Origin: Thomasclavelia spiroformis DSM 1552
Lineage (GTDB): Bacteria; Bacillota_I; Bacilli_A; Erysipelotrichales; Coprobacillaceae
DNA: 64,000 bases
Direction: 5' to 3'
NCBI RefSeq assembly: GCF_025149465.1
Contig: NZ_CP102275.1
Span: 992,001 to 1,056,000 of the forward strand
Below, in pieces: positions 30,791-42,203 of this stretch. Position numbers and translations under genes: made by a program. How positions within the stretch are numbered: the first letter of the stretch is position 1; every line of letters starts with the position of its first letter. The notes under the pieces were generated by a model, which did no database searches, was not told the origin of the DNA, and was given only the letters and a program-made list of their open reading frames with translations.

Positions 30791-31028
30791 GAGAGTGTAA
30801 AATTGTTTGGCATTAAAATTGATAATTGAATATTGATAGGCGAATTATTTTAGATTATTTTATTTAAATTAACTAGTTTTTGGAATTCTTTTCTGTAAAT
30901 TAGTCATGATAAGCATTTATTTTTAATAACTTTATTCAAATTATTTTAATTTATATATTATAAAAAACAGTCTGATCAGATATATCCCGTATCTAATTTC
31001 AGATTGTTCATATTTCATAATTTATTAT

Positions 31029-31223
31029 CTACAATTGATTCGGCCAAATCTTTTTCACGACCAGTTGATTTTTTAAATACATGGCTATATCACTGAGACT
31101 GTTGTCAATGCTGCTCAATACTCTATACAGATCAATTTCAGAGCATTCATCTTTTGAAATATAATTGTCATTTATATATTCTGCTATTTCGATAAAATCT
31201 TCTGCGTTCATTTTATATGTCAT
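31029..31223 (-). CDS. Small protein of unknown function
   Basis: A 64-residue acidic, helical reading frame (MTYKMNAEDFIEIAEYINDNY...) on the minus strand with a weak GAGAAG before it. No family is recognised. It is embedded in debris beside the first IS3 copy and may be a relic. Confidence 0.35.
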   Translation of the reverse strand: MTYKMNAEDFIEIAEYINDNYISKDECSEIDLYRVLSSIDNSLSDIAMYLKNQLVVKKIWPNQL

Positions 31224-31796
31224 CTTCTCGTATCATATTCATAAAAGTTATATGCTCGCCATTCGTTTATCCGATCTCATCTGCTGTCTCCATTATAGTA
31301 TTATTATCGATCATCATCATGATTTCTGTTGCTTCTATTATCAAACAAAGGGTCATCAGATTGTTTTTCTTGATGATCCCTGACTTGTATTGGCCAACAC
31401 CATCAATACTTCTGATAACACCAGTGGTTTATTATGTCCGACCTTTTTATTTTTATATTAATATAATTTTTAACAGCTTTCTCATTCATCACTGTTGTTT
31501 TATACTGGATCACGACTTTTTTTGAATGCTTAGTGGACTACTCTGTTGATGGTGTGATTCAGTACGGGTGTTCCTGTCAGGATCAGTATCACATAGTTGT
31601 GTGAATCAAAATTGAAGTTTAAATGCAAACGAATATATTTTACACGTTTTCTTGAACGACATACATTGATACTTAATGCATTTGACATCCAGGTCTTTTA
31701 AGTGGTTATGTGCATGAATTAATGGTGCATTTCGAATAAATTCTATATTTTAAAGCGGTGCTTAAACTGTGTATCAGTGGTGCATAACGCATGAAA
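31224..31796. other. Degenerate mobile-element DNA left of the IS3 copy
   Basis: All frames are broken. On the minus strand short coding-like pieces appear (for example ILILTGTPVLNHTINRVVH and GVIRSIDGVGQYKSGII) in different frames, with GC content higher than the surrounding AT-rich spacers. It looks like a decayed gene, but I cannot name the family. Confidence 0.4.
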
Positions 31797-31843
31797 TGGT
31801 ACTATGTCAAGAAAAAGTACCAGTTAAATAGAAATTTTTCTAT

Positions 31844-32713
31844 TTAACTTCGACATTTGAAAAATTCTGATTCATAATTATTTGGACTCATATAACCGCA
31901 ATGATTATGAATTCTTACTGTGTTATAAAATGTTTCAATATATTCAAATATTAATTGATATGTTTGACCATAATCCATTATTTTGAAGCGATTTAGCCAT
32001 TCTCTTTTTATCAGTGAATGAAACGATTCTATACATGCATTATCCCATGGTGTTCCCTTTTGTGAATAGCTTCTTTTCATTTTTATCGTTATTTTTTGAT
32101 ATTCTTCACTTGTAAACTGCACTCCACGATCGCTATGGATCACAAGCGGTTTTTCAATATTTCTTCGTACTTTTGCAATATTTATTGCTTCTATTATCGA
32201 TTCGGCTTTCATATCTTTAGTTAATACCCAGGATATGATTTTTCTTGAATATAAATCCATTACACTTGTTAAATAAACAAAACCCTCATCATAGGTCCAG
32301 ATATAGGTTATGTCTGTACACCAGAAAGCATTTGGCCTGTCTGGATTGAATTCTCTTTTAAGCAGATTTTTTAAATCTGCAGTGAAATTTTTAGAAATCG
32401 TTGTTTTTGTCCAGTGTTTTATATAGCAGGCTTTTATTCCCATCTCACGCATATAATTACTGACTGTTTTCATGCTTATCTTTATTCCTTTTTGCCGCAG
32501 GATATAGGTGATTTTTGGTGCTCCATAAATTTCTTTGTTTTCATGATAAATAGTTAGAATCATTTCTTTGATTCGTTCTTTGTGCAGTTGCCGATGGGAT
32601 TTTTTACGATGCTTCCATGATTTAAAACCGCTTCTGGAAATATTTAATATTTTGGTTACTGCTCTAATCGAAACCTTATTAGAATCGGCATCTTTATCAA
32701 TATATTCGTCCAA
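31844..32713 (-). CDS. IS3-family transposase OrfB (DDE integrase), copy A
   Basis: A 289-residue catalytic part: an HTH_21 segment (KEIYGAPKITYILRQKGIKIS), then an rve integrase core with the DDE residues in FWCTDITYIWTYDEG, VIHSDRGVQFTSEEY and PWDNACIESFHSLIKREW. No good ribosome-binding site or ATG precedes it; it is most likely made as an OrfAB fusion by -1 frameshifting on the A-run (TTAAAAAAAGC in the sense strand) near the end of OrfA. Confidence 0.93.
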   Translation of the reverse strand: MDEYIDKDADSNKVSIRAVTKILNISRSGFKSWKHRKKSHRQLHKERIKEMILTIYHENKEIYGAPKITYILRQKGIKISMKTVSNYMREMGIKACYIKHWTKTTISKNFTADLKNLLKREFNPDRPNAFWCTDITYIWTYDEGFVYLTSVMDLYSRKIISWVLTKDMKAESIIEAINIAKVRRNIEKPLVIHSDRGVQFTSEEYQKITIKMKRSYSQKGTPWDNACIESFHSLIKREWLNRFKIMDYGQTYQLIFEYIETFYNTVRIHNHCGYMSPNNYESEFFKCRS

Positions 32714-32730
32714 TGCTCTATAAAGAATAC

Positions 32731-33033
32731 TTACTGGCTGTTGAGAATGTTCATAGCTTTTTTTAATATTTCAACAGCGTCTCTTAAATCCCTGTTTTCT
32801 TTTTTTAATCTTGCCAGTTCTTTAGCATCATCACTGGAATAATTACCAGAACCTCTAAATACCTTGCTTTCATCATCGCTGTTTGATGAATATTCTTTAA
32901 TCCAGCGATGAATAGAACTTAATGAGATTCCAAGATTATTAGCTACTTCAGCCATGGTAAGTTCAGGATGATGCTTCCTATAATTAACAGCATCAATTTT
33001 AAATTGTTTATCGATTTGTTTCTTTTTAGCCAT
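32731..33033 (-). CDS. IS3-family transposase OrfA (HTH), copy A
   Basis: A 100-residue DNA-binding protein with an HTH_28/Tnp8 domain (LTMAEVANNLGISLSSIHRWIKEY) and a leucine-zipper-like C terminus (LARLKKENRDLRDAVEILKKAMNIL). A GGGGTAGAG ribosome-binding site precedes it. The A-run slippery sequence near its end allows the frameshift into OrfB. Confidence 0.93.
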   Translation of the reverse strand: MAKKKQIDKQFKIDAVNYRKHHPELTMAEVANNLGISLSSIHRWIKEYSSNSDDESKVFRGSGNYSSDDAKELARLKKENRDLRDAVEILKKAMNILNSQ

Positions 33034-33196
33034 ATAACTCTACCCCTTATTTATAATTTGATTATTGATTAATATAGATTACATCTGTTATCAGTATTAA
33101 TCAATACTGTTTTCATTTTATTGACATTTCTCTATTTAACTGGACCTAAATATATACTAGCATCAAAATAATCAATTCTAGAAAGGAAAACCAAAA

Positions 33197-33277
33197 ATAA
33201 AAATCGTCATAGTACTGTGTGATGACGACATTAAACAAGTAACACTATTTGATTTTTTAAGTGAAATATTCAGATAA
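33197..33277 (+). pseudogene. Possible relic of a LytTR-type response regulator start
   Basis: A 26-residue frame (KIVIVLCDDDIKQVTLFDFLSE) looks like the first strand and acidic pair of an AgrA/LytR-type receiver domain. AGAAAGGA lies upstream, but the start would be ATA and the frame closes at once. It is probably a fragment. Confidence 0.3.
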
Positions 33278-33386
33278 ACTCTTTACTATTATTCTTTCTA
33301 ACGTTTGAGAGCTTTTTCAATAATGAATTTCATATCATAAAGCATTTTCACACTATTAAAACAGTGTTGAAAGTACACTAAATCAT

Positions 33387-34397
33387 TTAAATATTTTTAT
33401 AATTATTTAATGTTTCCTTATATTCCTCTATTATTTTAATTCTGACTTCCTCAGGCTCTAAAACAATTACCTCATTAAGAAACGGAGCAAAATATGATTT
33501 AAATTGTAGTTCTGAACAGTTGAAGTAATAAATTCCTTTTTTTTGATCACTTTTCGATAATGGTATAGGTCTTTCTAGATATCTAGAATCGAATAAATCT
33601 TTACCCCTGTCTGTTAATAGGACTTTATAAATTGTATTATTATTAATCGAAAACTGAACACCATTTAATTTCATTTTTTTGAATTGTTCTTCTATATAAG
33701 TTTGAAATGTTCGAACACTTGCATCAAGATACACACTTGTAATATTATATATATGTATTGTGCTAGCAAAATATTTATTCGTTTCTTCTTTATAACCTTG
33801 ATATAAAAGATAATTATATAGCCCTTCTTTAGAAGTGCAAATTTCTTTTGGACTAATAAATATTTTCTTTCCCGATTTTGTTTTTATACGGATATTTTGA
33901 TTATTTTTGATTGCATCATTAATTTTATTTATTACTTTTTTATAAATAATTTTTTCTCTCTCACATTGGGGTTCTTTTAGATATGAGTAAATAATATTAG
34001 CTAAATATTCAGACTCACTTGCATTTTTTGGACAGGCATCAAGTATAAAGTCTAATTCATCATCGTTTTTATTTTTTCTTATGTGTATCTTTTTTTTTCG
34101 ATTTCGTTTGCTTTCACCATCTAAAAATGATGTTTCAGATATATATTTAGTAATTTTCCATGCAATATTTTGATAACTTATTTCACTAAAATCTTGAACA
34201 TTACTTTCAATTGTGATTGCCTCCTGTATTTTCTGTTTTAAAGAATTTATATTATGGTTATAGTTTGAATAATGATTTATTATTATTTTTTTTATTATAT
34301 CTGACTTATTTTTTCCTGTTTTAAATAATTTTTGATCTTCAATTATTTTCTCATAAGCAATAGGATCTAAGTATATGGTAATTTGATTATCTGTCAT
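33387..34397 (-). CDS. Ribbon-helix-helix/WYL-domain transcriptional regulator
   Basis: A 336-residue protein. The N terminus (NQITIYLDPIAYEKIIEDQKL, then KSDIIKKIIINHY) fits a ribbon-helix-helix DNA-binding domain; the middle (about 185-225, NIRIKTKSGKKIFISPKEICTSKEGLYNYLLYQGY) is a WYL domain, which commonly binds a ligand such as a nucleotide or nucleic acid. RHH-WYL proteins of this kind are known next to defence systems. I start at ATG 34397 after AAAGGAGA rather than at 34418. It is divergent from the two tiny genes and the Thoeris-like operon, with two identical 12-base sites in the gap. Confidence 0.8.
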   Translation of the reverse strand: MTDNQITIYLDPIAYEKIIEDQKLFKTGKNKSDIIKKIIINHYSNYNHNINSLKQKIQEAITIESNVQDFSEISYQNIAWKITKYISETSFLDGESKRNRKKKIHIRKNKNDDELDFILDACPKNASESEYLANIIYSYLKEPQCEREKIIYKKVINKINDAIKNNQNIRIKTKSGKKIFISPKEICTSKEGLYNYLLYQGYKEETNKYFASTIHIYNITSVYLDASVRTFQTYIEEQFKKMKLNGVQFSINNNTIYKVLLTDRGKDLFDSRYLERPIPLSKSDQKKGIYYFNCSELQFKSYFAPFLNEVIVLEPEEVRIKIIEEYKETLNNYKNI

Positions 34398-34419
34398 TTC
34401 TTTCTCCTTTCCACTCATA

Positions 34420-34486
34420 TTTTGTAGGTGCTTATATATACTATTTTATCTAATTATTATATTTATTCAATATGTTTTGTAGGTGC
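34420..34486. promoter_or_regulatory. Paired direct repeats, candidate operator of the RHH-WYL regulator
   Basis: TTTTGTAGGTGC occurs exactly at 34420-34431 and 34475-34486, 55 bases apart (about five helical turns), each preceded by AT(G)-rich DNA. They lie in the divergent gap just before the regulator gene. Ribbon-helix-helix proteins often bind such repeated short sites. Confidence 0.6.
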
Positions 34487-34572
34487 ATTGAAAATATAAA
34501 TAACCATATTAATATTATTTTAAATAAAATATAATATAGGTATAAACATTCTTAAAGAAAGGAGGATAATAA

Positions 34573-34698
34573 ATGGCGACACATCATGGCGGGAAGGTTG
34601 GAAAAGCAGCTAAGACTTTAGCGAATAAAAAAAGTAGTAAATCTGCAAAATCTAAAGCTGGGACTACTTTAGCTAACCACAAGCATAAATGTCATTAG
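34573..34698 (+). CDS. Tiny basic Lys/His/Ser-rich protein
   Basis: A 41-residue protein, starting MATHHGGKVGKAAKTLANKK and ending ANHKHKCH, preceded by GAAAGGAGG with good spacing. It is strongly basic with His at both ends and many Ser, Lys and Ala residues. Similar tiny proteins are, to my recollection, common as unnamed neighbours in Firmicutes defence regions; the function is unknown. A TATAATATAGG promoter-like stretch lies about 45 bases upstream. Confidence 0.7.
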   Translation: MATHHGGKVGKAAKTLANKKSSKSAKSKAGTTLANHKHKCH

Positions 34699-34733
34699 AC
34701 GTATTATTTTTAAGGAAAGAGAGGTGATTGATT

Positions 34734-34874
34734 GTGTATAAAACAGGAGAAAAGCCAGGTAAGGGAACTTATGTCTGTATAAAATGTGACACAGTTGTGA
34801 TATTAGATGATACTAATGATACTTTACCACCATGTCCAAAATGTAATAATGTAACCTATCGTAAAATATCATAA
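34734..34874 (+). CDS. Tiny zinc-ribbon protein
   Basis: A 46-residue protein starting at GTG with GAGAGGTG upstream. It has YKTGEKPGKGTYVCIKC and, 18-20 residues later, PPCPKCNN, two CxxC knuckles that should hold a zinc ion. It is very close to the preceding tiny gene (35-base gap), so the two are probably cotranscribed. The family is widespread but without an assigned role. Confidence 0.75.
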   Translation: MYKTGEKPGKGTYVCIKCDTVVILDDTNDTLPPCPKCNNVTYRKIS

Positions 34875-34940
34875 GGCAACTCATTTGTATGGATATAGTA
34901 AAAACATTATTAATTCTTTAACAATAACTAACTAATTTAT

Positions 34941-35018
34941 TTATGTTTTACCCTATACTTTATGTAAAGTTTCTTTTTATAGGTAGCTTTGTTGATAATA
35001 GTATTGGGTAAAACATAA
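34941..35018. repeat. Long inverted repeat between the tiny genes and thsA
   Basis: Arms 34941-34959 (TTATGTTTTACCCTATACT) and 35000-35018 are complementary at 18 of 19 positions around a 40-base loop. There is no strong T-tract after it, so it is not an ordinary terminator. It could be a structured RNA, an attenuator or a miniature mobile element. The rest of 34875-35229 shows no gene. Confidence 0.65.
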
Positions 35019-35229
35019 CCCTGAATATATAGATTAGGATTTAAAGATTGTGAATGCTAATTTTTGGTATAATAGTTCTAATTTATAGGAACGTTAATTG
35101 CTAAAAACAGCAGTATGTCCTGGTTAGTCATATTGATATACATATTTATAAAGAAGTGGTATTAATACTGTTAAATTTATGAAAGAATAATCTTTTTATA
35201 AATTTTATATTAAAATTAAGGAGATAAGA

Positions 35230-36078
35230 ATGAGAAAGATATATAAATGGTACAGTAAATTAACAAAACGAGTAAAAGATAGTATTATTATTACTATGTC
35301 TTCAATAGGAGTAATATCTACTTTTCTATCTGTGTTAGGTCTATCGTTGGCGGATATAGAGACGTTAACTATTTGGTTAAGGATAGTTATAAGTGTATTT
35401 GCTTTCATTGTATTATATATAATTATATATATGTTGATAGGTAGAATATTTAAAGATTCTGTTAGTACCACGATTCATCAAACATCTGTAACTGTTGTTT
35501 GTGGTGATATATTTGAAGTTCCAGAATTTAGAGTGATAGGTTGTGATACAAATTTTAGAACCGAAATTGATGATGTAATTATATCGAAAAAATCTTTACA
35601 TGGACAATTGATTTTAAATCATGGGGTACCAGATGAGATTAATGCAGTAATTGAATCGGAAGCAAAACGTTTAGGATTACATAAAAATGATGAGGGATTA
35701 TATGATTTTCCACTTGGTACGATAATTCGTTATGATAGCAGTGTTGATAATCATACATATTTGATGTTGGCTATGACAGAATTGAATAGTAATTATGAGA
35801 GTCATACAAATATGGCTAAATTTGAATATATGCTAATGAGAATGTGGAAGGAAATTAACAGGGTTTATGCAGGAAACGATATTGCTCTTCCTTTGTTGGG
35901 ATCGGGTATTTCAAGATTTGATGATGGTCCAAAAGAATATGGAGCGTTATTAAGATGCATGTTGTGCACTCTTAATGGTAGTGGAGTAACTTTTAATTCA
36001 AATATTAAGATTCTTATATATGGAAATATAAAGGATATTCCCTTATACGAATATAAAGATATATTTAATATAGTTTAA
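35230..36078 (+). CDS. thsA: ThsA-type effector of type II Thoeris: two membrane helices plus macro domain
   Basis: A 282-residue protein. Two membrane helices lie at about 15-40 (SIIITMSSIGVISTFLSVLG) and 49-72 (RIVISVFAFIVLYIIIYMLI). From about 88 on is a macro-like domain of the DUF6430 type: VVCGDIFEVPEFRVIGCD, then FPLGTIIRYD and LPLLGSGISRF. In type II Thoeris, the TIR protein makes an ADP-ribose-type signal that this macro domain binds, which triggers membrane damage. AAGGAGATAAG precedes the ATG. It is 16 bases upstream of two TIR genes, which supports the assignment. Confidence 0.88.
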   Translation: MRKIYKWYSKLTKRVKDSIIITMSSIGVISTFLSVLGLSLADIETLTIWLRIVISVFAFIVLYIIIYMLIGRIFKDSVSTTIHQTSVTVVCGDIFEVPEFRVIGCDTNFRTEIDDVIISKKSLHGQLILNHGVPDEINAVIESEAKRLGLHKNDEGLYDFPLGTIIRYDSSVDNHTYLMLAMTELNSNYESHTNMAKFEYMLMRMWKEINRVYAGNDIALPLLGSGISRFDDGPKEYGALLRCMLCTLNGSGVTFNSNIKILIYGNIKDIPLYEYKDIFNIV

Positions 36079-36094
36079 AGGAGATAGAAGTATT

Positions 36095-36748
36095 ATGGGA
36101 CACAAATGTTTTATTAGTTTCAAAAAAGAAGATGATTATTACAAAAATGAAATCTCTAAAATATTGGAGGAAGGGCAAATTCAAGGAAAATCGCTTGATA
36201 AGTGGATAGATTCTGAAGATATTGACTATGTTATGCAGGTAATTCGCTCTCAATATATGAAGAATACTTCTGTAACACTTTTCTTAATAGGAGAACATTC
36301 TTCAGAAAATGAAGGATTCGAATATAGTTGGTCAGATGGATGCTATTATAATAAACAAAATTTCATTATTAGAGAATTAAAAGCTACACTTTATGATGGA
36401 AAAGGTAACAGACGAAGTGGATTATTGGGAATAGTTTTACCAAATATGTATGATACTGTATATGGTGGAAGTTATACATGTTCACATTGTGGTAAAGAGG
36501 TTAACGTGGTTAATATTAATTCAAATACAGTAATTAAGGAATTTTCAGAAAACTATTATCTAAACCCAAACTGTAATGATGGACATTGTGACGAAACAGG
36601 GCGTTATTGTGTTTTGGTAAAGTATGATGATTTTATTAAAAATCCTAATGTGTATATAGATATGGCATATGATAAAACAAATGAAGAAATAAGCGATTTT
36701 GTTCATTGGAAAGATATTAAACATGAATATAAGAAAACGTATTTATGA
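36095..36748 (+). CDS. thsB: ThsB-type TIR-like sensor (MTH538/DUF1863 fold)
   Basis: A 217-residue protein with the short ThsB-type TIR domain at its N terminus: HKCFISFKKEDDYYKNEISK, LDKWIDSEDIDYVMQVIRSQYMKNTSVTLFLIG, then NFIIRELKATLYDG with the Glu likely catalytic. The second half (about 128-180) has CSHC and later Cys/His residues (CNDGHCDETGRYC), perhaps a zinc-stabilised insert. ThsB enzymes sense infection and make a nucleotide signal from NAD+. AAGGAGATAG lies upstream; it is in an operon with thsA and a second TIR gene. Confidence 0.87.
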   Translation: MGHKCFISFKKEDDYYKNEISKILEEGQIQGKSLDKWIDSEDIDYVMQVIRSQYMKNTSVTLFLIGEHSSENEGFEYSWSDGCYYNKQNFIIRELKATLYDGKGNRRSGLLGIVLPNMYDTVYGGSYTCSHCGKEVNVVNINSNTVIKEFSENYYLNPNCNDGHCDETGRYCVLVKYDDFIKNPNVYIDMAYDKTNEEISDFVHWKDIKHEYKKTYL

Positions 36749-36768
36749 TAATTTAGAGGAAGATTTTT

Positions 36769-37623
36769 ATGTATAGATGTTTTAAATTGTCTCTAGACCA
36801 GTGGGAATTTAAAAATAATCATAAGCAATTTTTAGATAATTGTAAGACATGTGGGATAGAACTGAAAGAAAATCTTGTTAATGCTTTTGATTCAATACTA
36901 AATGCATCAATTGATGGTAATGGTGTGATAAGTGGAGAAAATTTTATTGATAGTTGGTTTCCGATTGATAACTATGATGTGTTTCTTTCATATTCTCATG
37001 ATGATGAAGAACTAGCTTTGCTATTGGCAGGATTCTTAAAATACCAATTTGGATTGAGAGTGTTTATAGATGAACTGTTTTGGGGAAGTGCTGATGATTT
37101 GCTTCATAAGCTTGATGATAAATATTGTAAAACTAAAGAAGGAAATTACGATTATAGAAAACGAAATTTTACAACTACCCATGTACATGCTATGTTATCA
37201 ACTGCTATTGCAAGAACAATCAATAATTCAGAAGTTATAATTTTCCTTAATTCAGAAAAGTCGATATATAAAGTAAGAGAAGAAGTGAATGTGGGCCAAA
37301 CTCTTTCTCCTTGGATTTATGAAGAAATTATTTTCACAACTGTTATTGGTGAAAGAGAATGGTATGAACATAGACTAGATGAGTTAAAAGAGTCAACTAT
37401 TAATTTTCAGAAATCAATGGAAATATCATATTTAGTTCCGAATGAACATCTAATACCTATTCAGTATAATGATTTATGCGAGTGGATCAAATTGTGGGAG
37501 GAGAGAAAAGATAATGGTAATGGACCCTATGGAAATATCTGCCTTAAACCTAATGAAAAGATACGTCATCCGTTGAATGTTTTGTATGATTTCAAATGTG
37601 GATATGATATAAAATGTAGCTAA
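36769..37623 (+). CDS. Second Thoeris TIR-domain protein with an N-terminal extension
   Basis: A 284-residue protein. Residues about 1-65 are an extension with no recognised fold; a TIR domain follows, from YDVFLSYSHDDEELALLLAGFLKYQFGLRVFID, with the catalytic Glu probably in LSPWIYEEIIFTT near residue 185. The C-terminal 80 residues are helical. Multiple TIR sensors with one effector are known in Thoeris loci, each responding to different triggers. GAGGAAG lies 7-13 bases upstream of the ATG, 20 bases after thsB. Confidence 0.85.
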   Translation: MYRCFKLSLDQWEFKNNHKQFLDNCKTCGIELKENLVNAFDSILNASIDGNGVISGENFIDSWFPIDNYDVFLSYSHDDEELALLLAGFLKYQFGLRVFIDELFWGSADDLLHKLDDKYCKTKEGNYDYRKRNFTTTHVHAMLSTAIARTINNSEVIIFLNSEKSIYKVREEVNVGQTLSPWIYEEIIFTTVIGEREWYEHRLDELKESTINFQKSMEISYLVPNEHLIPIQYNDLCEWIKLWEERKDNGNGPYGNICLKPNEKIRHPLNVLYDFKCGYDIKCS

Positions 37624-38100
37624 TCGTTAATTTCGTTGATTACAAATAAATATTTTAAAAGATTTTTAATGTCTTATTGTGTACAATGAGTGCTTAATTA
37701 TACTTATTTGCTACATCTATTTTATAAAGAATAAAAAGAAATGAAATATTAAACTGTATAAATTGATAAACGATATACTAAAAGCTGCTATTCATTTTCA
37801 TAAATTTATTATGAAACTACTGACCTTAAATTGACCTTATTATATGTTGAAATATATATTTTATAAGAAATTTGTGAATTAAGAGAAGTAAATCACATAT
37901 CTTAATTTATAAAGGTTAGTAAAAATGTATGAATTCATGGAGTTCGAATAGCAAATAAAATGTCAAAAAGGGGTAATTAAATAATTTAGGGGGCAACTTT
38001 AGGGGGATGCTCACTAATAGATACCCTAAAAAAGATCGAAAGAAACGCAAATATATCATAAAGAATATGTTCCTTTTTTGTGCCTAGATGTTCATATTTT
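37624..38100. repeat. Island dispersed repeat, copy 2, and ISL3 end
   Basis: No gene. It resembles copy 1 (GACCTTAAATTGACCTTATTATAT near 37820) and, further on, 47087-47155 and 50695-50780 (TAATTAAATAATTTAGG..., then TGCTCACTAATAGATA). The end adjoins an ISL3 transposase relic, so it is probably the element's eroded terminal region. Confidence 0.6.
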
Positions 38101-38731
38101 CTATTTGTTTTTTGATCTGTGTCTATAAACTTCTTCTTTGGATTTTGGTGTAGAAAGTATTGCTTCGTTTTTTCTGCTAGACCATATCAGTCGAGTACGG
38201 GCATATTCAAAATTACTTAATCCTCTTGAATTTCTTTTAAAGTCTTTTGGTATTCGATTAAAACCTTCAATCGGTCTGTTGGAAATACGTCTTTGTTTTC
38301 CACTGGCATCGTTTATATAAATAAAGGAATTGATTATTTCCTGTTTATGCGTATCTAATAGTACGGAAAACTCTCTGAATACTGATATTGCAGATTTTGA
38401 ATATTCGTCAGTGAGCTCTTTGAGAACTGTATTTAATTTTACCTGATCTGTTTCATGAGAAGAATTAAATTCAATATATTTTTCTTTTAGTTTTCTGATG
38501 ATTTTCAAATGATCATCAATTTCAAAAAAACATCTTTTCATAGTCGTAGGTATTCAGATATATCTTCAGCTTATGATTATATTTGGCTTTGATTTGATTA
38601 TCAATATGACCCTGATTTTTTAAAAGAAGCCATCGATAGTTATTCAGAAGGTAAACTTCTTTGGAAATCGGGATATTTTGACTAATCAAGTCATCAGATG
38701 GTGTTTTATTCCTTTTTTTCAGTATTTCCAT
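38101..38731 (-). pseudogene. ISL3-family transposase relic
   Basis: The C-terminal part (RISNRPIEGFNRIPKDFKRNSRGLSNFEYARTRLIW) matches the conserved end of ISL3 transposases. The preceding part (about 38522-38731, YLLNNYRWLLLKNQGH) is in another frame, and the N-terminal half is missing. A shorter relic of a similar gene lies at 50830-51000. Confidence 0.8.
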
Positions 38732-39447: not shown

Positions 39448-39577
39448 TGAAAAAATGTGGGGTTTGTAGAGTGAATTTTGAGTTGATTAAAATAGTTTAA
39501 ACTTAATTTTGAATCTAAAAAATAAAATTAAGTATTATTTAAATTTTAAGGTTGTACAAAAGGAGGTAGTCTTTACA

Positions 39578-40579
39578 ATGAAATTAAAAAAACAATTTCA
39601 AGATTTTCATGATTATATTAAATCACCTTTAACAGATCAATTAAAAGAAAAAAGAGCAATGTTTGAAGATGAGATAAAGAATAATTTTTCGACAGTATGT
39701 GATGAAAAAGGAATAGAAATAAAAAAATCTGATCTGAATTTCTTTATGCAAGGCTCATACTCTATTTCAACAGCAATAGATGCATATGACAGTTCTGTAG
39801 ATTTGGATTTGGCAGTAGCTTTTGAGTTTAATGTTGAGGACAATAGTGATTGTCGAGAGATAAAGGGATATATGAGAGATAGCATAGATAATTATAATAG
39901 GACAATTGATTATAAAATTCCTTGCATTACAGTAACATATTTTGAAGATGGTGAAGAGTCATATCATATTGATTTTCCTATATATGCAATTCACAATAAT
40001 CAGTATTATTTAGCTAAAGGAAAAGAATATAGTAGTGACTATAAATGGGAATTATCAGATCCAAAAGGACTGAAGAAATATTTAGAAAGTTATTTAGCAA
40101 ATAATTCTCAATTAAGAAGAGTAGTAAGATATTTAAAATGTTGGAAGCTTAATGCTTTTGATAGAAATAATGGGAATGAAGTGCCACCAAGTATTGCATT
40201 AACATTATTAGCGTGTAAATATTTTGAAGAGAAGAAAGAAGACAACCAAGATTATGATTTAGAGGCATTGTATAATGTTGTGAAAAAAATCAAAGATTCT
40301 ATAGATAGTTATAGTGACGATCCTTACTATTATGTAAATTTACCAGTGGTTCCTTATACAGATACTATGTTTAAAATTAACTCAAATTCTTCATACAGAA
40401 AGAAATTTAAGAGTAAAATTTATGATTTTGAATTGCAGTTGAGAAATGCAAAAAATGCTGGAGATGAACATACAGCTGGAGAATATGTACGCAAAGTACT
40501 AGGAGAGGAATTTGAAGTTCCAGAAAAGCAGGTAGATGCAGGTGAAAATAAGTTTAGAAGAACAAGTCAATTTGGATAA
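39578..40579 (+). CDS. CBASS CD-NTase (cyclic oligonucleotide synthase)
   Basis: A 333-residue nucleotidyltransferase. Active site: QGS (58-60), DLD (75-77) and a third Asp in YHIDFPIY (132), the GS-DxD-D pattern of CD-NTases. It makes a cyclic di- or trinucleotide alarm on phage infection. ATG 39578 follows AGGAGGT; the frame extends back to a TTG at 39509 without a site. The last residues are TSQFG, and a C-terminal glycine is what a Cap2 enzyme needs to conjugate the CD-NTase. The gene overlaps cap2 by 44 bases. Confidence 0.92.
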   Translation: MKLKKQFQDFHDYIKSPLTDQLKEKRAMFEDEIKNNFSTVCDEKGIEIKKSDLNFFMQGSYSISTAIDAYDSSVDLDLAVAFEFNVEDNSDCREIKGYMRDSIDNYNRTIDYKIPCITVTYFEDGEESYHIDFPIYAIHNNQYYLAKGKEYSSDYKWELSDPKGLKKYLESYLANNSQLRRVVRYLKCWKLNAFDRNNGNEVPPSIALTLLACKYFEEKKEDNQDYDLEALYNVVKKIKDSIDSYSDDPYYYVNLPVVPYTDTMFKINSNSSYRKKFKSKIYDFELQLRNAKNAGDEHTAGEYVRKVLGEEFEVPEKQVDAGENKFRRTSQFG

Positions 40580-42203
40580 AAAGTTTGTTGAGAGTAAGCT
40601 TTTAGAATTTTCGCATATTGTTAAGGTGGAAGAAAAATTTATTCAATTTGAGTACAAGAATGAAACATTTTATTTATTACTAAATTTCGGTGGTATTCCA
40701 GATATTTGCGTTTTGACGGATCAAATAAAATCATATCCACATTTTTGTTTGCATAAAAGTTTGCAGATGGGAGATTTAAATTTTTATTCTATATGTTTAT
40801 ATGTGAGAGATGAAATTTCATTTTATAATGCAACTTATCAGGAAAAATGTGAATTTGTTCTTGAACAATTTAAAAGATTGATGAATTTAAATACTTATGA
40901 ATTAGAAAAAGAAGTTGTTAGTGAGTATAAATACCATTGGAATAAAAAATCTATGTTATTAGTATATTCAAATATTTCTCCGGCAGATTCAATTAAAGGG
41001 ATTCATATGTTTGAGTATAGAAGGAAAAAGGATAAGAAACCTATAAACAACTATGTTCTTTCAAAAAAATTTCCTTTTAAGTCTTCTATATATAGCTATA
41101 CTCAAATGAATTGTTTGTATCTTAATGTTATCGATATAAAAGGAATCCTACCTCCACCTTTTAAAATGTGGGATACTAAATTATTAAAAGAATTGTTATT
41201 TAGTCTAAAAAGAAAACGTTTTGACGAAAAAACTTGCAGATTATTAGCGCGTTGTTATGTTAGAGATAAGATATTCATTTTTTTGCGTTTTCCACAACTC
41301 AATAATTTAGAGATAGGAATAAAGATACTTTTTTCAAATAATATAAAAGGAAAATTGAAAGAAAAAATAAGTCACATAATATCAATTACTTTTATTGAAG
41401 TTTCAAATAGAAATATTGAAACAAGTATAATTAGAAATGGTGGGAATCTTATTGAATGTAAAAAAGTATTGGTTATAGGGTGCGGATCTTTAGGATCATA
41501 TATTGTTAGAGAATTACCAAAGATTGGGGTTAGCAATCTAACAATTGTTGATGGAGATAACTTGGAATATTGTAATCTATCTAGACATACATTGGGGGAA
41601 ATGTTTGTTGGAACCAATAAAGCTACTGCGATGTGTGAATTACTCTCTGCTGAATACGGGAATATGAAATTCAATGCTATTAATGAATATGTGTTGGATC
41701 ATAATTTTTCTGAAATCATCAATGATGAATCTGACTACGACTTGATTATCATTACTACAGGAAATGAAGATTTACAGTATATGTTCAATAATCGATTAAT
41801 AAAATTGAAGAAATATATTCCAACAATTTTTTGTTGGTTAGAATCCTATTCAATAGGTTTTCATGCATTGGTTATGAAAAATCCATCTGATGGATGTTAT
41901 AGCTGTGTTTTGAATTCTAATTTCAACTATATTGTAAATCATGAAAAACAAATTAAGTATAATGGATGTGGTGGAGTTTATTCTCAATATGGAATCAATA
42001 TTCTTTTAAATACGACATCATTAATTATTGACATAATTAATGCATGGCCCTCAATTAACTCCAATATTTTGTATTCTTATAAAACAAAAAGCATTAATAA
42101 TCATATAGATGATTTACAATTTACAAAACGTTATTACGAAGATGATTATGGAATAAATAAAGTTGAAAATTTAAAGGTTAAGGAATGTGATTGTTGTGAT
42201 TGA
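40536..42203 (+). CDS. cap2: Cap2: E2-E1 fusion ubiquitin-transfer-like enzyme of type II CBASS
   Basis: A 555-residue protein. The N-terminal E2-like domain (about 1-150) has conserved Cys/His residues around SYPHFCLHKSLQMGDLNFYSICLY. The E1/ThiF domain starts near residue 310 with VLVIGCGSLGSYIVREL, then IVDGDNLEYCNLSRHTL and later DLIIITTGNEDLQ; a catalytic Cys candidate is in PSDGCYSCVL. It charges the CD-NTase C terminus and attaches it to targets, which primes the synthase. It overlaps the synthase gene by 44 bases and cap3 by 17. Confidence 0.9.
   Translation: MQVKISLEEQVNLDKKFVESKLLEFSHIVKVEEKFIQFEYKNETFYLLLNFGGIPDICVLTDQIKSYPHFCLHKSLQMGDLNFYSICLYVRDEISFYNATYQEKCEFVLEQFKRLMNLNTYELEKEVVSEYKYHWNKKSMLLVYSNISPADSIKGIHMFEYRRKKDKKPINNYVLSKKFPFKSSIYSYTQMNCLYLNVIDIKGILPPPFKMWDTKLLKELLFSLKRKRFDEKTCRLLARCYVRDKIFIFLRFPQLNNLEIGIKILFSNNIKGKLKEKISHIISITFIEVSNRNIETSIIRNGGNLIECKKVLVIGCGSLGSYIVRELPKIGVSNLTIVDGDNLEYCNLSRHTLGEMFVGTNKATAMCELLSAEYGNMKFNAINEYVLDHNFSEIINDESDYDLIIITTGNEDLQYMFNNRLIKLKKYIPTIFCWLESYSIGFHALVMKNPSDGCYSCVLNSNFNYIVNHEKQIKYNGCGGVYSQYGINILLNTTSLIIDIINAWPSINSNILYSYKTKSINNHIDDLQFTKRYYEDDYGINKVENLKVKECDCCD

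Follow-up and report, generated by a model that had tools for sequence, protein, structure and literature searches.

A WYL1-type regulator with paired direct sites and two phage-type tiny genes probably forms a local switch next to the Thoeris genes of Thomasclavelia spiroformis

In the 64,000-nucleotide stretch of Thomasclavelia spiroformis DSM 1552 DNA analyzed here (the window), a ribbon-helix-helix (RHH) regulator with WYL and WCX parts is encoded divergently from two tiny genes, and the gap between them carries two 12-base direct repeats. We propose, with a probability of about 0.72, that this locus is a local switch in which a regulator dimer occupies two same-facing sites, represses its own gene, and adjusts tiny-gene transcription to a ligand sensed by the WYL domain. 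It is probably a real local gene switch, and not one for the neighboring Thoeris genes. The most informative result, judged from sequence comparison, is that paired, spaced direct sites appear to be a trait of the WYL1-type family.

The regulator gene lies at 33387-34397 on the minus strand and encodes 336 residues from its likely ATG at 34397. The reading frame extends over 33387-34418, and the ATG at 34397, which is preceded by an AGGAG ribosome site, is more likely to be the start than the opening of the frame at 34418. The protein has no match in Pfam or NCBIfam and is labeled WYL by PADLOC (E = 8e-8). A four-row profile of the regulator retrieved one solved structure, RspWYL1 (PDB 6OAW; E = 7e-26, positions 7-336), which was also found with the regulator sequence alone (E = 8e-7) as its sole clear sequence relative in the PDB. 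When a predicted structure built with 17 relatives (pLDDT 89) was used in a fold search, the top match was again 6OAW (E = 7e-16, TM 0.66), with PafBC, DriD, and BrxR next. The model places putative RHH strands at residues 5-10 and 102-107, with two helices after each, the order described for RspWYL1 (PMC6547453). Based on the sequence match, the fold match, and two RHH motifs per chain, the regulator is a full-length, WYL1-type homolog of RspWYL1, and the first-pass annotation was right to label it RHH-WYL.

In RspWYL1, the two RHH strands of each chain fold as a pseudo-dimer, and the C-terminal domains form the real dimer (PMC6547453). By analogy, an RHH pseudo-dimer of this kind should read an asymmetric site, because its two strands differ. 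In the window the strands are NQITIY and IHIRKN, as opposed to EKIKIY and IS-KPTK in distant relatives.

The 175-bp gap contains, as the first-pass annotation had claimed, two exact copies of a 12-base sequence, TTTTGTAGGTGC, 55 bp apart from start to start (site 1, 34420-34431; site 2, 34475-34486; both on the plus strand). These are the only exact copies in the window (0.01 expected); two copies were found in none of 100 shuffles of the 64 kb, and such a repeat was found in none of 60 shuffles of the gap. The sites are non-palindromic direct repeats that read GCACCTACAAAA on the regulator strand, where they begin 34 and 89 bases before the ATG. Across the 2.53-Mb genome there are two further copies, widely separated, one within a 482-aa frame (L004) and the other in an apparent long coding stretch (L001); the paired arrangement is present a single time here and a single time in the genome of Longicatena caecimuris. 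The possibility that TTTTGTAGGTGC is a genome-wide regulon site was rejected on the grounds that both other genomic copies are unpaired.

Candidate promoters were called on both sides of the gap. That of the regulator, TTGAAT-16-TAAAAT (34443-34470, minus strand), is a weak consensus match, and the candidate -10 element of the tiny-gene operon, TATAAT (34530-34535, plus strand), has a poor -35; consensus calls are unreliable in this DNA, with 14 found versus 7.6 expected. The candidate transcription start of the regulator is near 34436 (minus strand), with site 1 immediately beyond it. The tiny-gene transcript is predicted to begin near 34542 (plus strand), which centers site 2 at about -61, a usual activator position.

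A search of 98 genomes yielded one close relative of the regulator (64% identity), in Longicatena caecimuris DSM 29481 (G058), which belongs to another family and carries the three genes arranged as in the window. Recurrence of the gene order and conservation of the 12-base sites had been set as checks, and Longicatena provides both. Its sites, TTTTGTAAGTGT (site 1) and TTTTGTAAGTGG (site 2), share a G-to-A change at position 8 and are 66 bp apart, 11 more than in the window. In both genomes TATAAT follows the start of site 2 by exactly 55 bases, the block AATATAATATAGGTATA at this -10 element is identical, and the regulator promoter has the version TTGAGT-17-TATTAT. The Longicatena cassette is followed by a terminator-like hairpin with a T-run and then an unrelated 181-aa frame, and a SIR2-STAND gene is on its other side. 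Among 316 genomes of the order, there were five matches to the 41-aa family, four of them strong, and two strong matches to the zinc ribbon; strong matches to both coincide only in the two genomes with a close regulator, and these are the only two from which the full cassette is known. Extending the search for the 41-aa protein to the whole class brought in no additional genome, and no DNA similarity to phages and plasmids was found.

The tiny genes encode a Lys/His-rich basic protein of 41 aa (34573-34698, plus strand) and a zinc-ribbon protein of 46 aa (34734-34874, plus strand), and their divergent arrangement with the regulator is as first described. Both frames are very likely translated, because third codon positions account for 18 of the 24 differences between the window and Longicatena in the 41-aa gene and are the largest class, with 17 of 36, in the 46-aa gene. 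The 46-aa protein has two cysteine knuckles and a PPC block and matches the end of DUF1451 (PF07295) at 37.5 bits, above the curated cut-off of 26.1, over the last 41 of 146 positions only. This zinc ribbon is common in prophages and was found in 64 viral contigs, a Streptococcus phage, and Mollicutes and Acinetobacter plasmids. The 41-aa protein has no Pfam or NCBIfam match and none by tblastn against phages and plasmids, and its family matches phrog_20619 and phrog_5079, both phage families of unknown function. The tiny proteins look like phage-type cargo, and our guess from their charge and the zinc ribbon is that they may bind nucleic acids. Relatives of the regulator were not found in viral contigs.

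The occurrence of these tiny families in prophages also fits a regulator that simply represses a pair of toxin-antitoxin-like or phage-immunity genes, with ligand sensing by the WYL domain incidental. In the viral contig L118, a 41-aa-like gene and a zinc-ribbon gene are adjacent within a repressor region, and an Acinetobacter plasmid has an Arc-type RHH gene near a zinc ribbon. However, the zinc ribbon is present in many phages without the 41-aa partner, which argues against an obligate pair, and the WYL and WCX parts are conserved throughout the regulator family, so we consider this explanation unlikely. Other settings of the tiny genes were also recorded. At 3736-4133 of L118, the zinc-ribbon gene after the 41-aa-like gene reads in two frames, perhaps from a frameshift or sequencing error. 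A lone 41-aa homolog (L051, from G038) follows CapP-like (ImmA-type) and PIN-like genes and precedes a macro-domain-like gene, in a mobile or defense setting. Small Mollicutes plasmids (L018 and related; H6, H9, and H10) encode the zinc ribbon at two to four places each.

Distant relatives of the regulator, about 23-34% identical, were collected from 29 further genomes. They are often divergent from DUF6847 (15 loci by one query, plus one by a second query) and/or RtcB (10 loci), which suggests WYL-controlled RNA repair at these loci. Those of Erysipelotrichaceae and Clostridia in which WYL1-type regulators are divergent from DUF6847/RtcB RNA-ligase genes (L021-L047, e.g. L047, L026, and L039) often have a TTTACA-17-GATAAT promoter. 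An unseeded repeat search in the gaps of the relatives repeatedly gave one motif. When a leave-one-out matrix, seeded from a pattern noticed by eye in those repeat results, was applied, two direct, same-strand asymmetric sites G[AC]CC[AC]CTTTT were found in all 23 scorable loci, most of which have DUF6847/RtcB genes divergent from the regulator (second-site P <= 0.005 versus shuffles). Whole-locus scans (4-17 kb) with the matrix recovered no further pair of this kind, and 15 of the 23 loci had no matches at that score apart from the two gap sites.

The geometry of these pairs is also regular. In 18 of the 23 loci, 51-52 bp separate the center of the distal site from the divergent -10, and in most loci the start of the proximal site precedes the -10 of the regulator promoter by 15 bp. 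The two sites are spaced by 43, 55-56, 66-68, 78, 86-88, or 96 bp, classes that are weakly periodic (p = 0.03). Spacing changes between sister branches (11, 32, 9, 9, and 11 bp) are near whole helical turns at p about 0.003, in a test with few counts, some weakly supported branches, and pairs picked by the analyst. On this comparative evidence, having two spaced direct sites is characteristic of the WYL1-type family. A partial literature search returned no paper naming DUF6847 and none describing paired direct sites for RHH-WYL proteins.

The window sites resemble the 55-bp class of relatives in their offsets from the ATG (26-41 and 81-96 bases in that class). The site GCACCTACAAAA itself receives a negative score from the family matrix and has no more than CACYT in common with the GACCACYT subtype, and the distal site is a few bp closer to the -10 than in the family. 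We read the window sites as the family's layout with a changed specificity, a comparison that claims shared site geometry only and no sequence homology of the sites.

The regulator might instead act like RspWYL1 on RNA or a partner protein, leaving the repeats as sites of another protein. As a full-length homolog it could share the behavior of RspWYL1, which prefers single-stranded RNA and binds Cas13d (PMC6547453). However, the paired sites accompany the regulator gene in 23 distant loci, where their geometry relative to the promoters is fixed and the neighbors differ, as autoregulation predicts, and no Cas13d-like gene adjoins the regulator in the window; we regard this alternative as quite improbable.

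Under the proposed switch, the locus would be a self-contained, probably mobile cassette that pairs a WYL1-type regulator with a divergent operon for two tiny, phage-type proteins. The two RHH strands of one chain would together read one asymmetric site, and because each chain should do so, a regulator dimer could occupy both of the asymmetric direct repeats from one side of the helix. The autorepression operator would be site 1, where the regulator transcript begins, and at site 2, ~61 bp upstream of the tiny-gene start, the dimer would contact RNA polymerase or close a loop. The WYL ligand, most likely a single-stranded nucleic-acid fragment from infection or damage, would flip the complex and turn the tiny genes on. 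The sequence comparisons show the anatomy of the locus, its recurrence, the conserved and family-wide site pairs, and the fixed promoter geometry; we infer the DNA binding, the autorepression, the loop or contact, the ligand, and the role of the tiny proteins. Activation is slightly favored as the regulatory sign on the tiny genes. Counting for the switch are the recurrence of the cassette in another family with both sites changed together, the coincidence of the two tiny genes with the close regulator only, the site pairs of the 23 distant loci with their fixed distances and near-helical spacing changes, and the RspWYL1 fold with two RHH strands per chain. Counting against it are window sites that depart from the family consensus, the reported preference of RspWYL1 for single-stranded RNA (PMC6547453), a full cassette in two genomes only, weak promoter calls, and the shorter distal-site distance.

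The first-pass annotation had noted that the tiny genes precede a Thoeris-like operon, which is true by position, and had offered two roles for the locus: a switch for the Thoeris genes or a small independent module. The downstream operon consists of ThsA_Macro and two TIR genes, 355 bp beyond the tiny genes and in the same direction, so that the regulator could be its switch, with the tiny genes as leader genes. Control of defense operons by WYL regulators is known for BrxR and CapW (PMC9122601, PMC9122588), and the interval between the tiny genes and thsA gave no canonical terminator call. However, the operons are separated by a strong hairpin (34938-35021; single-copy, 19-nt arms, 95% paired, z -5, no T-run), there is no copy of the sites near thsA, the Longicatena cassette occurs without thsA, and the other six of the seven genomes of the order with ThsA relatives (316 searched) have no tiny genes. 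An Rfam search over 31000-38500, which includes the hairpin, returned no match. Co-occurrence of the regulator, the tiny genes, and thsA, which had also been set as a check, was seen in the window genome only, 1 of the 316. Because the Longicatena cassette has no thsA and the other ThsA genomes have no cassette, we conclude that the cassette is independent of Thoeris and that a Thoeris link is unlikely; control of the Thoeris operon by this regulator is, in our estimate, distinctly unlikely. The independent-module option is well supported by the Longicatena cassette, which keeps its sites without thsA, and by the family-wide paired direct sites.

The surroundings of the cassette (26696-59470) read as a defense island, most of whose genes were named by eye from reading frames: a DUF262-like gene, Thoeris with two TIR genes, an apparent type II CBASS (CD-NTase-like at 39509, ThiF-like at 40536, and JAB-like at 42187), type I restriction genes, group II intron reverse transcriptases, and IS3-type transposases.

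More broadly, the WYL1 family may at root consist of DNA-binding regulators that use two asymmetric direct sites on one helix face, mostly at DUF6847/RtcB operons, with the cassette a branch that has a changed site and a phage-type tiny-gene output and with the Cas13d helper another recruit; we hold this view tentatively, at a little under even odds. The present results provide a testable operator layout for WYL1-type proteins, a group studied through a CRISPR helper that binds RNA. If this layout is right, it would link the WYL1 family to both RNA-repair control and a phage-derived two-gene cassette, and studies of WYL sensing could draw on its DNA probes, on spacing variants that occur naturally, and on a natural change of specificity (GACCCCTTTT versus GCACCTACAAAA sites).

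Among known systems, the WYL activators PafBC and DriD have WYL-WCX halves that match the regulator model. They are winged HTH proteins of DNA-damage responses and, unlike the window regulator, are not known to be divergent from tiny phage-type genes. Thoeris (ThsA macro and two ThsB TIR proteins) adjoins the cassette in the window and is unlinked to it elsewhere; the two coincide in 1 of the 316 genomes, so the cassette does not recur in Thoeris loci. BrxR and CapW, which regulate BREX and CBASS, are WYL-WCX regulators near defense or mobile genes that act on the gap upstream of their targets, but they bind palindromic sites through winged HTH domains (PMC9122601, PMC9122588), whereas an RHH protein and two spaced direct repeats are found here. 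In Anabaena, the autoregulated RHH protein TrcR represses rtcB and the trn operon (PMC10272220), and the distant relatives probably control rtcB in a comparable way; TrcR is described as an RHH protein with no mention of a WYL domain, and the window genome has no RtcB. RspWYL1, an accessory of type VI-D CRISPR-Cas13d (PMC6547453), shares tandem RHH, WYL, and C-terminal dimerization domains with the regulator over its full length. It is described as an RNA-binding booster and not as a transcription factor, whereas the window regulator, with no cas13d adjoining it, is divergent from small genes and has paired DNA sites.
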